Source of the DNA: Buchnera aphidicola (Aphis helianthi)
Lineage (GTDB): Bacteria; Pseudomonadota; Gammaproteobacteria; Enterobacterales; Enterobacteriaceae
DNA: 64,000 nt
Assembly (NCBI RefSeq): GCF_005083845.1
Contig: NZ_CP034894.1
Location: 570,212 to 634,211 of the forward strand
Direction: 5' to 3'
The position numbers and the translations under genes were made by a program. Positions within the stretch are counted from its first letter, which is position 1. Each line of letters opens with the position of its first letter. The notes under the pieces are model-generated. The model had not been told where the DNA came from. It searched no databases and saw only the letters and a list, made by a program, of their open reading frames with translations. Of this stretch, positions 40,124 to 43,237 are shown piece by piece.

Positions 40124-40624
40124 ATGAAAAAAACAGCAATATATCCAGGTACATTTGATCCAATTACATATGGACATTTAGACATTATAACTCGTGCAAC
40201 AAAAATTTTTGACAATATAATTATTGCTATTTCCTCTGACAATATAAATAAAAAAACTATTTTTAGTCTAAAAGAACGTATTCAATTAGCTAAATTAGCT
40301 ACGTTACATCTTAATAACATAAAAAAAATAATTGGTTTTAATGATTTACTAGCTAATTTGGCAAAAAAAGAAAATACTAATATTTTAATTAGAGGGGTAC
40401 GTACAATATTTGATTTTGATTATGAAATTAAATTAGCCGCTATAAATAAACAGATATATCCTGAATTAGATAGTATATTTTTACTTTCATCTAAAGATGT
40501 TTCATTTATATCATCATCTTTTGTAAAAGAAATCGCAAAATATAAAGGAAATGTAAAACCATATCTTCCTAAAGAAATACATTTTGCTTTTTTAAAAAAA
40601 ATTAAAAAAATATCAAATAAATAG
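40124..40624 (+). CDS. coaD: Phosphopantetheine adenylyltransferase
   Basis: 166 residues (E. coli 159). The nucleotidyltransferase motif TFDPITYGHLDI is intact (T10, H18), followed by IRGVRTIFDFDYE and the SSKDVSFISSSFVKEIA loop. It makes dephospho-CoA from phosphopantetheine, the penultimate step of coenzyme A synthesis. A symmetrical terminator follows and separates it from the convergent orphan gene. The E. coli waaA neighbour is absent. Confidence 0.96.
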   Translation: MKKTAIYPGTFDPITYGHLDIITRATKIFDNIIIAISSDNINKKTIFSLKERIQLAKLATLHLNNIKKIIGFNDLLANLAKKENTNILIRGVRTIFDFDYEIKLAAINKQIYPELDSIFLLSSKDVSFISSSFVKEIAKYKGNVKPYLPKEIHFAFLKKIKKISNK

Positions 40625-40643: not shown

Positions 40644-40683
40644 AAAAAAAAATAATAGGGTTAGATAACCCTATTATTTTTTT
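40644..40683. terminator. Bidirectional terminator between coaD and the orphan gene
   Basis: AATAATAGGGTTA and TAACCCTATTATT form a perfect stem, flanked by an A run on the left and a T run on the right. It therefore works as a terminator in both directions. It is the cleanest such element in the window and marks the 3' end of the orphan gene as a real transcription unit. Confidence 0.8.
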
Positions 40684-40708: not shown

Positions 40709-42222
40709 TTAATGAATAACATATGAATGTTTTATTATTGGTGCTTTTCTATATGAAAAAATAACATTTGTTTCTATTCCATAAGAATGATGTCTTCTTA
40801 TATTATTTGCATCTATAGAATAAAAATCAGATAAATTAGTAATAATGATTCTAATACTACCATCTTCTAGATGAGTGATCTCATAAAAATTTTTTGCTCG
40901 TACAATTCGAGCATTATTTAATTCTGGATGTTCAGCCATTAGTTTTAAATAAGATGGTCTTAATAAAGATGGGTTTGCATATTGAGAAATGAATTTTTGC
41001 TCGATATCATTAGTAATTAATTCTTTAAATCTTTGAAGCATCTTCTCTTTAGTTGAAGATGGAATTAAACGTCCATCAATTACGAAAACAGAAGAGTTAA
41101 AATCTATCATAAAATATTTATTTAAATCTTTAGGGACCTCTAGTTTTTCATACATCGGTGAATAAGAAGAGATTGTTGTAGTATCATTTTCCTCGGAAGA
41201 CGATTCTTCTTTTTTATCAAATATTGTCCAAATATCTTTATTTTTTTCAAAGTCATAATGAGAGTTTTTGATAGTTTTGTTTATTTTATCTTGAAAATTT
41301 TTATTTAACTTGATATTTCTTAATTTTAGTTTGAAATCGAAACTATCATCAAAATCATTTGGATGCCGCTGATCAATTTTTTGTGATATTGGAGTTTCAT
41401 AGTTTAAATCAGGAAAAGAACTTTCATATTCAGGGTGTTTAGGATTATGATTCAGTTTGTTAATTATTTTTAATCTTCCTTGTTCTCTTATTTTTTTAAT
41501 AAGAGCATGTATCAATAATTTTGAAGATTCAATTGTCTTTTTTAACTTTTCAACATATTTAACTAAACTATCAATCTTATCATTTACCTTTCTTGTTGAC
41601 TCATCCATTGAAGATCCAACAATAAAATTATAACCTGCATCAAAAATCTTTTTAAATGTAGTTCCATTTAATAAATTTATAGCTTCATCTTTGATGATTA
41701 TATAAGTTGTATATATTGCTTCTTTAAGCTGATTAATTATATTATTGGCAATTTCTTTAAAATTTATACTATCAATTGTATCGTTAATAAAATTAAGTAA
41801 AGTATTTAAAGTGTTAGGGATAAATTCTAGGATAGTTTGAATCGTGGTTTTATAAGAGGATTCAGAATCAGTTTTTTTTTCACAGAGTTTTCAGGGTTTA
41901 ATTCATCTAAATCGCCGATTTCACCGGTTTCTTTAATTTTTTGTTCTATTTTTTGTAAATCATTTAAGTATTTTTCATGTAATTTTTCTAACTCAACTAA
42001 ATCTAAATCATTTTGAGGAAAATCGATTGTAATTTTAGTACTTTTATGTGTAGTATTTTTAGTACCGTGTGTATTTTTATTGTTTCTAGGATTATTAATT
42101 GGGTCTTCAATACGTGAAATTATTTCATTATTATCAAAAGGCTTTATTTTAGTCTTGAATTTTTCATTTTGTTCAAAAGATATTGGATTTAATTTATCAA
42201 CTAGATTAATATTAGATGACAT
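40709..42222 (-). CDS. Orphan hydrophilic protein of about 504 residues, frame broken at a poly(A) tract
   Basis: Two open frames read as one gene. The first, from ATG 42222, ends at 41827. It contains nine A at 41880-41872, read as K-K-K. With ten A the frame runs stop-free through TDSESSYKTTIQTILEF and about 90 further codons straight into the second open frame (from 41608). This gives about 504 residues. The N-terminal third is Asn/Lys/Ser-rich and disordered-looking, with a predicted helical DLVELEKLHEKYLNDLQKIEQ. The middle has further amphipathic helices, and the C-terminal ~130 residues look folded (FVIDGRLIPSSTKEKMLQRF ... SYGIETNVIFSYRKAP). I see no signal peptide. Sampled lines run near 30 percent G+C against 15-25 in the neighbours. 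I do not recognise the family. By position it may be one of the Buchnera-only yba orphans (memory, unchecked). Confidence 0.75.
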
Positions 42223-42493
42223 AATTTTATTTCCTTTTTTTTTAACTAACTTCTTTAAATAAAAATATTTTTGTTAAAAATTTGACAAAAAATATTTTTA
42301 AAGCAGTTTCAACTAAATTTTTAGTAGTTTTATTTTTTACTTTTTAAAACAACATTGTTAAAATTAGTATTTAAAAATAATTTTTAAGTTGCTAGTTGCT
42401 TAAGAGATGTAAAAAATAAAATGCTCTTATTTCGTATATTTTAAATCTATTTTTAGAAAAGTCAATTATTAATAACAAAAAAATACAAATATT

Positions 42494-43237
42494 ATGAATA
42501 TATATTTAATTACAAGAAATATTAATACAAGAATACAGAAAATAATTAATGATTATAATATAAAACATGATGAAAATGCTTCTTTAGCATTAATAATAAA
42601 TAATAATACATTAGAATTATATAATCGTCTAGAATCTCGGAAAAAAATTATTAAAGTTGATTTTTTATCTAATCAAAATAATTATAGATGTTCAAATTTT
42701 AAAAAAAAAAATGAAGCTCTTTATAAAGCATTAGGAATTAAAAAAAATTATTTTCCCTATGTTGTAGATGCTACAGCTGGATTTGGTAAAGACGCATTTT
42801 TAATTTCTTTTTGGGGTTGCTATGTAGTTATGATTGAACGTCATCCAATAATTGCTGCCTTATTGAAAGATGGTTTACAAAGAGCATATGAAAATAAAAA
42901 TATTGGAAATTGGTTAAAAAAAAGATTACATTTAATGTTTTCCGATAGTTGTAAAATTCTTAATACATCAATGTTAAAACCAGATATTATTTATTTGGAT
43001 CCAATGTATCCTACAAATAAAAAAAAAGCATTGCCTAAAAAAAATATACAATTTTTACGAAATATTATTCAAAATAATGATAATTGTGAAAATTTATTAA
43101 ATGTTTCTAGAAAATTTGCAAAAAAAAGAATTATTGTTAAAAGACCTTCTTATGCAAAACCTTTATCTAATGAAAAAGTTGAATTTTCAATAAATAATAA
43201 AAATAATCGTTTTGATATATATTTACCCTTTAAATAA
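42494..43237 (+). CDS. rsmJ: 16S rRNA (guanine(1516)-N2)-methyltransferase
   Basis: 247 residues (E. coli 250). SAM-binding VVDATAGFGKDAFLISFWGCYVVMIERHP is followed by the catalytic-type DIIYLDPMYP motif. It methylates G1516 of 16S rRNA. The orphan gene lies upstream on the other strand with a 271-base divergent gap, which contains no further gene that I can see. A terminator follows directly after the stop. Confidence 0.95.
   Translation: MNIYLITRNINTRIQKIINDYNIKHDENASLALIINNNTLELYNRLESRKKIIKVDFLSNQNNYRCSNFKKKNEALYKALGIKKNYFPYVVDATAGFGKDAFLISFWGCYVVMIERHPIIAALLKDGLQRAYENKNIGNWLKKRLHLMFSDSCKILNTSMLKPDIIYLDPMYPTNKKKALPKKNIQFLRNIIQNNDNCENLLNVSRKFAKKRIIVKRPSYAKPLSNEKVEFSINNKNNRFDIYLPFK

Follow-up and report, generated by a model that had tools for sequence, protein, structure and literature searches.

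A nine-adenine tract invariant within a genus of Buchnera probably links two orphan reading frames as one slippage-dependent gene

Introduction

In insect endosymbionts, genes are known whose reading frame is broken in the DNA at a poly(A) tract. The available portions of papers dealing with Buchnera and Blochmannia (PMC5009743, PMC3164680, PMC3017870), which cite Tamas 2008 and Wernegreen 2010, describe slippage at such tracts as shown or proposed to yield a portion of full-length RNA, and some breaks that are conserved between species. Two of these portions report poly(A) slippage in Buchnera itself (PMC3164680, PMC5009743). Slippage rescue of broken insect-symbiont genes, in some cases common to several species, is therefore already known. 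The locus described here is similar in that a poly(A) tract lies in an insect-endosymbiont gene with a broken DNA frame. However, the genes described in those portions are known enzyme, cell-wall or replication genes, whereas the present gene is a symbiont-specific orphan; unlike the cases described there, its break is present in 33 of 34 genomes of the genus, at a run whose length does not vary.

Programmed slippage forms a second group of related systems, including dnaX on nine-A runs, type III secretion genes of Shigella, and IS elements (PMC5009743, PMC3711429, PMC1088944). As far as the available text of these papers goes, the nine-A run is alike, and both situations share the expectation of a short and a long product and a run apparently kept by selection. 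In contrast to those systems, we infer slippage here from sequence, and the relatives with a single frame indicate that the arrangement arose by breaking an existing gene. In the parts of the sources at hand, nine is also the length of the RNA:DNA hybrid in an indel study of Buchnera and E. coli (PMC5574713), and it is the run length cited for bacterial slippage (PMC5009743). According to the accessible part of a further paper, yba3 and yba4 are the only two orphan genes of Buchnera, are highly expressed, and are conserved in the strains from A. pisum and S. graminum (PMC1899503). The two reading frames studied here are probably this pair, judging from an inferred match of names.

Results

Layout of the locus

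The window, a stretch of 64,000 nucleotides, was taken from the genome of Buchnera aphidicola (Aphis helianthi), which comprises 645 kb in 3 contigs. One contig, of 7.6 kb, resembles over its first 3 kb Buchnera plasmids that bear repA and leuCD, with the best identity (~86%) to plasmids from Aphis species. The features of the locus are as follows.

41827..42222, minus strand: ORF1, the N-terminal part of the gene, 131 aa; codons 1-114 lie upstream of the A tract, and the 14 codons past the tract form the unslipped tail
40709..41608, minus strand: ORF2 counted from its first ATG, 299 aa, as given in the ORF listing
40709..41890, minus strand: the open frame of ORF2, 393 codons counted from the preceding stop, 387 of them between the tract and the terminal stop
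41872..41880, minus strand: the A9 tract, proposed slippage site; context in the window G-A9-CT
41609..41871, minus strand: the "spacer" that separates the tract from ORF2's first ATG, conserved and coding in the ORF2 frame by alignment and dN/dS
42231..42240, minus strand: the ribosome-binding site of ORF1, AAAAAAGGAA, preceding ATG TCA TCT AAT
40647..40682, minus strand: a terminator-like hairpin followed by T's, between the gene and coaD (-16.3 kcal/mol, z -4.78)

The two minus-strand ORFs of 131 and 299 aa lie where the initial annotation had placed them and meet at the A9 tract. Its claim that a single register change at the tract joins them was also borne out: one change opens another 386 codons, giving a total of ~504 residues. 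The unslipped register ends at a stop 14 codons past A9, and the third register meets a stop immediately. Runs of at least nine A occur 57 times in the window (32 and 25 by strand), and the run at 41872-41880 is the sole one that joins two long open frames, that is, frames of at least 100 codons each extending at least 240 bases past the other.

The unit is isolated from its neighbors, with a divergent gene upstream (42494-43237) and a convergent gene (40124-40624) beyond the hairpin; from their sequences, we take these two genes to be rsmJ and coaD, respectively. The hairpin at 40647-40682 was absent from the output of a simple terminator pattern scan. A G+C-rich short inverted repeat at 40895-40913, inside ORF2, was terminator-like by scan on both strands. 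A site resembling the ribosome-binding site of ORF1 precedes the start in most of the relatives inspected. Both ORFs have a G+C fraction of ~0.25; the higher G+C that had been ascribed to them holds only against the immediate neighbors coaD (0.222) and rsmJ (0.208). The window overall is at 0.233, and several of its other genes are higher than the two ORFs.

Coding evidence and relatives outside the genus

The interval that runs from A9 up to ORF2's first ATG had been described as non-coding spacer, a description that has to be given up. The stretch, like ORF2 over its whole length, aligns as protein across 33 genomes (locus L010 excluded), mostly at low dN/dS: over its first 85 codons, the ratio was 0.26-0.51 in 10 of 11 close pairs, which are not all independent, and 1.0 in the other one. 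In the body of ORF2, dN/dS was 0.17-0.45 across the same 11 pairs, and the relaxed selection expected of a pseudogene after the break was not seen. ORF2 is under purifying selection. Four control genes gave 0.03-0.28. ORF1 was nearly neutral (0.46-1.28), which indicates loose constraint everywhere but at its start. A tblastn search with the window's ORF1 recovered it in just 8 of the 34 flanking regions.

The two ORFs might be two separate genes, as the names yba3 and yba4 suggest, with ORF2 started internally or by translational coupling. Both halves look like ORFs, codon 89 past the tract is an ATG in the ORF2 of the window, and the two orphans are treated as two genes in the accessible part of PMC1899503, whereas we see one gene. 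However, the genomes have no ORF2 start codon in common. The first ATG of ORF2 lies anywhere from 27 to 195 codons past the tract in 33 genomes, and none of the alignment columns ahead of column 240 shows a start codon (ATG, GTG or TTG) in more than 9 of the 33. In addition, conservation as protein extends upstream of the ATG, and every matching genome of other genera carries the gene as a single ORF. We regard two separate genes as very unlikely.

A profile search with ORF2 across 295 genomes sampled from the family gave matches in 31, which represent 13 of 154 genera. Outside the genus there were 28 matches from 12 genera, and all 28 carry the conserved C-terminal domain in one uninterrupted ORF, with open frames of 274-537 codons. 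Eighteen of these 28 begin with MSS at their likely starts, mostly preceded by a ribosome-binding site like that of ORF1. The N-terminal halves of the genus and of the outside relatives are too divergent for confident alignment, and N-terminal homology thus rests on position, start and context. The claim of a single gene is upheld by these 28 relatives and by the conservation of the ORF2 frame back to the tract. Orthologues in two ORFs had been named as an observation against that claim; they are literally what is found within the genus, but outside it all 28 are single. This indicates that one ancestral gene was broken and remained so. The simplest history would be that a single gene suffered one break in the common ancestor of the genus and has stayed in that state.

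Two scans of genome contigs returned no relatives; they had no positive control, the aphid-symbiont records being missing from them too, and say little on absence elsewhere. In the searches made, no credible relative was found beyond reduced genomes (~400-700 kb) of the same family, consistent with the orphan status proposed at the outset.

The tract and the frame break within the genus

Of the 36 genomes available for the genus, 34 have a match to ORF2, a count that takes in the genome of the window. The other two, G024 and G029, are excluded from every count of 34. Neither the orphan gene nor pitA was matched in them, and their match to coaD was absent or weak and partial; they are therefore uninformative on the gene, and the region may be lost or unassembled in them. 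In 33 genomes, a script picked as the tract the first A9 that stands isolated close to where the ORF2 frame begins, and in L010 the tract was set by hand; its homology among genomes rests on common context and phase.

Exactly nine A were present at the junction in all 34 genomes. The base before the tract is G in 30 of 34, and the tract is followed by C or T and then by T in 34 of 34. At the tract, the two halves are out of frame in 33 genomes, 29 joined in one way and four in the opposite way. In the 29, the tract is preceded by G and ORF2 is joined by A10 (one extra A, or two fewer). In the four (L028, L029, L030 and L034), the tract is preceded by CAT, and it takes A8 (one A fewer) or A11 to join the frames; here, too, the run is A9. 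In these four genomes an earlier ATG before the tract has turned into CAT, with the same TCAT-A9 form each time; on the tree, this would correspond to three such alterations, two of them firm.

L010 (genome G015) is the only genome of the genus with a straight-through frame. Its A9 is unchanged, but ~38 bases further downstream GAA has become GAAA, and this additional A gives a continuous 508-codon frame; the change may be a true reversal or an error of sequencing. In 33 of the 34 genomes, ORF1 stays open all the way from its start codon to the tract, while the other two frames hold 5-27 and 12-34 stops. In L034 (genome G016), there are two additional frame breaks in ORF1 upstream of the tract, with ORF2 open; they may reflect decay of the N-terminal half. 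Because of these extra breaks, the joining direction in L034 was judged from the last ORF1 segment before the tract.

The initial annotation had viewed the break as one missing base, a flaw of this sequence or strain. Its presence together with A9 in 33 of 34 genomes corrects this view and indicates an old, fixed state. An ordinary homopolymer pseudogene, or an assembly error in the A run, would look similar in a single genome, and homopolymer frameshifts are common in Buchnera: Table 1 of PMC3164680 gives between 8 and 18 for each genome in its six Aphidinae columns. Against this, A9 and the break recur in 33 of 34 assemblies, selection past the break is purifying, and ORF2 is open in all 34 genomes. 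We give this explanation almost no weight: it is unlikely for the genus as a whole, although it could hold for L034.

Phase-variable loci usually contain a run within a gene. The tract could accordingly belong to a contingency locus, in which the DNA run switches between A9 and A10 within the population. A mixture would be expected of a switching locus, whereas A9 was found in 34 of 34 consensus genomes, which makes such a locus highly improbable. A tenth A in the run would bring the frames together in the DNA of the 29 G-A9 genomes, and none of the 34 has the longer run.

Constancy of the run length

The constancy of A9 was compared with that of control runs on trees built from flanking genes, the nucleotide tree comprising 14 genes with a total length of 5.38. 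The junction run length showed 0 changes on the tree, as against 2-19 changes for 20 control A-runs (at least 8 A in at least 17 genomes, runs shorter than 7 pooled as one state). The bases around the tract, compared without gaps, turn over: each of the 12 bases upstream changed 3-13 times, with a minimum of three changes for the base that precedes the tract. Downstream, the first two positions changed 1 and 0 times and the next ten 3-10 times.

Control genes were drawn from 20-kb regions with both orphan ORFs set aside; 509 copies in 16 genes were kept after a length filter of 0.8-1.25, which led to one gene with only 11 passing copies being dropped. Across the 16 flanking genes, 54 sites hold an A-run of nine or more in at least one genome, and not one of these sites is invariant. 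Counts of exact A9 peaked at 21/31, 18/34 and 17/22, and one A8 site reached 32/34. Lys-Lys-Lys triplets contain at least one AAG in 76 of 262 cases in the flanking genes, compared with 0 of 30 at the junctions with the run in phase. In eight close pairs, A/T runs of at least nine were unchanged in 12 of 29 non-coding cases (17 changed) and in 20 of 38 coding cases (18 changed), the last count possibly containing the junction itself, at most once per pair. Since many control runs are also unchanged in close pairs, the invariance of A9 is telling only over the whole tree.

The run length was kept through at least two, and probably three, reversals of the joining direction. The grouping of L034 with L037 has a support of 1.0. 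For L022 with L028/L029, support is 0.958 from nucleotides, 0.988 from the gene itself and 0.55 from codon positions 1 and 2; for L018 with L030, it is 0.678 and 0.457, and 0.013 from proteins. Given the moderate support that separates L030 from L028/L029, two direction reversals are firm and the third is likely.

Programmed -1 ribosomal frameshifting on A_AAA_AAA could also join the frames, with RNA polymerase uninvolved. The heptamer A AAA AAA lies in zero-frame phase in the 30 genomes with a preceding G (of 34), 29 of which are out of frame. Yet a -1 frameshift needs only seven of the nine A's, and the first two never change. No Shine-Dalgarno-like sequence was present 5-18 bases upstream of the tract in any of the 34 genomes, and there was little downstream structure (mean folding z -0.11, 2 of 34 below -2, in a folding test of pseudoknot-free structures). 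Nor is the -1 direction constant, as L028, L029, L030 and L034 need the opposite shift. This reversal of the linking direction in four genomes, with A9 retained, favors slippage of the polymerase over -1 ribosomal frameshifting, which we consider unlikely.

The encoded protein

The protein opens with a conserved start (MSSN...), continues with a hydrophilic region that is variable, and has at its C-terminal end a conserved domain of ~170 residues. The initial annotation had recognized no known family, and the database searches concur. In Pfam, ORF2 and the single-ORF relatives found no credible match (best E-values 0.0018-0.0019, from one member each; the best 25 of 54 and 19 of 19 families). 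The same was true of NCBIfam for ORF2, the single-ORF relatives and ORF1 alone, of PHROGs, where ORF1 alone was also scanned (best 0.0061), and of the PDB sequences for ORF2 and the single-ORF relatives (best 0.033). An AlphaFold model of the window's ORF2 frame alone had a mean pLDDT of 36.6 and was not usable; it hints at a tendency to long helices after the tract, a stretch that is probably helical, and at mixed helix and strand in the C-terminal part.

With regard to a reading of the protein as a substrate of flagellar type III export, FlhA was found in 30 of the 31 carriers searched, the exception being genome G161. G024 and G029 have FlhA and gave no match to the orphan gene. Six other genomes of the family lack both FlhA and a match to the gene, and these need not be aphid symbionts. 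In G161 (locus L102), the orphan gene is a single ORF and FlhA was not matched, and the gene may thus outlive the flagellar export gate in that lineage. A putative role of the gene in the symbiosis, as suggested in the initial annotation, is plausible.

Discussion

We consider it quite likely that ORF1 and ORF2 form one slippage-linked gene, which was broken in the ancestor of the genus and whose A9 tract yields a mixture of transcripts. The gene would have a single ribosome-binding site, that of ORF1, and a single terminator, and RNA polymerase would slip on the A9 tract to produce mixed transcripts. Unslipped transcripts would give a short product of ~130 residues with the N-terminal region only, and transcripts with one extra A (or two fewer) would give the full ~504-residue protein with its conserved C-terminal domain. 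The full protein would probably be made only upon slippage of RNA polymerase. The tract has sequence features expected of a slippage gene: it is an A run of about nine in a coding region, it joins two frames, and it is conserved beyond its protein context.

Data on transcription errors in Buchnera bear on this mechanism in two ways. In the accessible part of PMC5574713, homopolymers hold 151 of 157 insertions and 16 of 57 deletions in Buchnera transcripts; at another place, the paper puts the number of deletions at 70. This excess of insertions in homopolymers fits the common G-A9 form, which needs one extra A. The same part of that survey, in which the Buchnera counts are small, records no Buchnera error that restored a reading frame. 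This result counts against slippage, although two separately annotated ORFs might not have been scored there. Further points against the single slippage-linked gene are the near-neutral evolution and low tblastn recovery of ORF1, the one pair whose spacer has a dN/dS of 1.0, and the additional ORF1 breaks of L034.

Selection likely favors having both products side by side, or less of the long one; like the slippage itself and the ratio of the products, this is proposed from comparison of the genomes. Alternatively, the broken state may be merely tolerated, with A9 kept solely to preserve the rescue. The constancy of the run length while neighboring bases turn over suggests a break that is in use and not just tolerated. 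The genus can do without a broken frame, since L010 reads through, unless its extra A is a sequencing error. The genome of Buchnera is poor in regulators. We lean slightly toward the view that selection holds this symbiosis-specific gene out of frame genus-wide and that slippage on A9 serves as a switch of fixed ratio between the short and the long product.

Among the matches listed in the openly licensed literature, the titles and abstract openings include none that reports both orphans as one gene and none that reports a slippage site fixed across the genus. The frame break described here has lasted across nearly the whole genus at a run of invariant length. If the reading of a single slippage-linked gene is true, the two named orphan genes that Buchnera probably has would merge into one. 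The tract offers a direct test of polymerase slippage as a regulatory device in a highly reduced genome.
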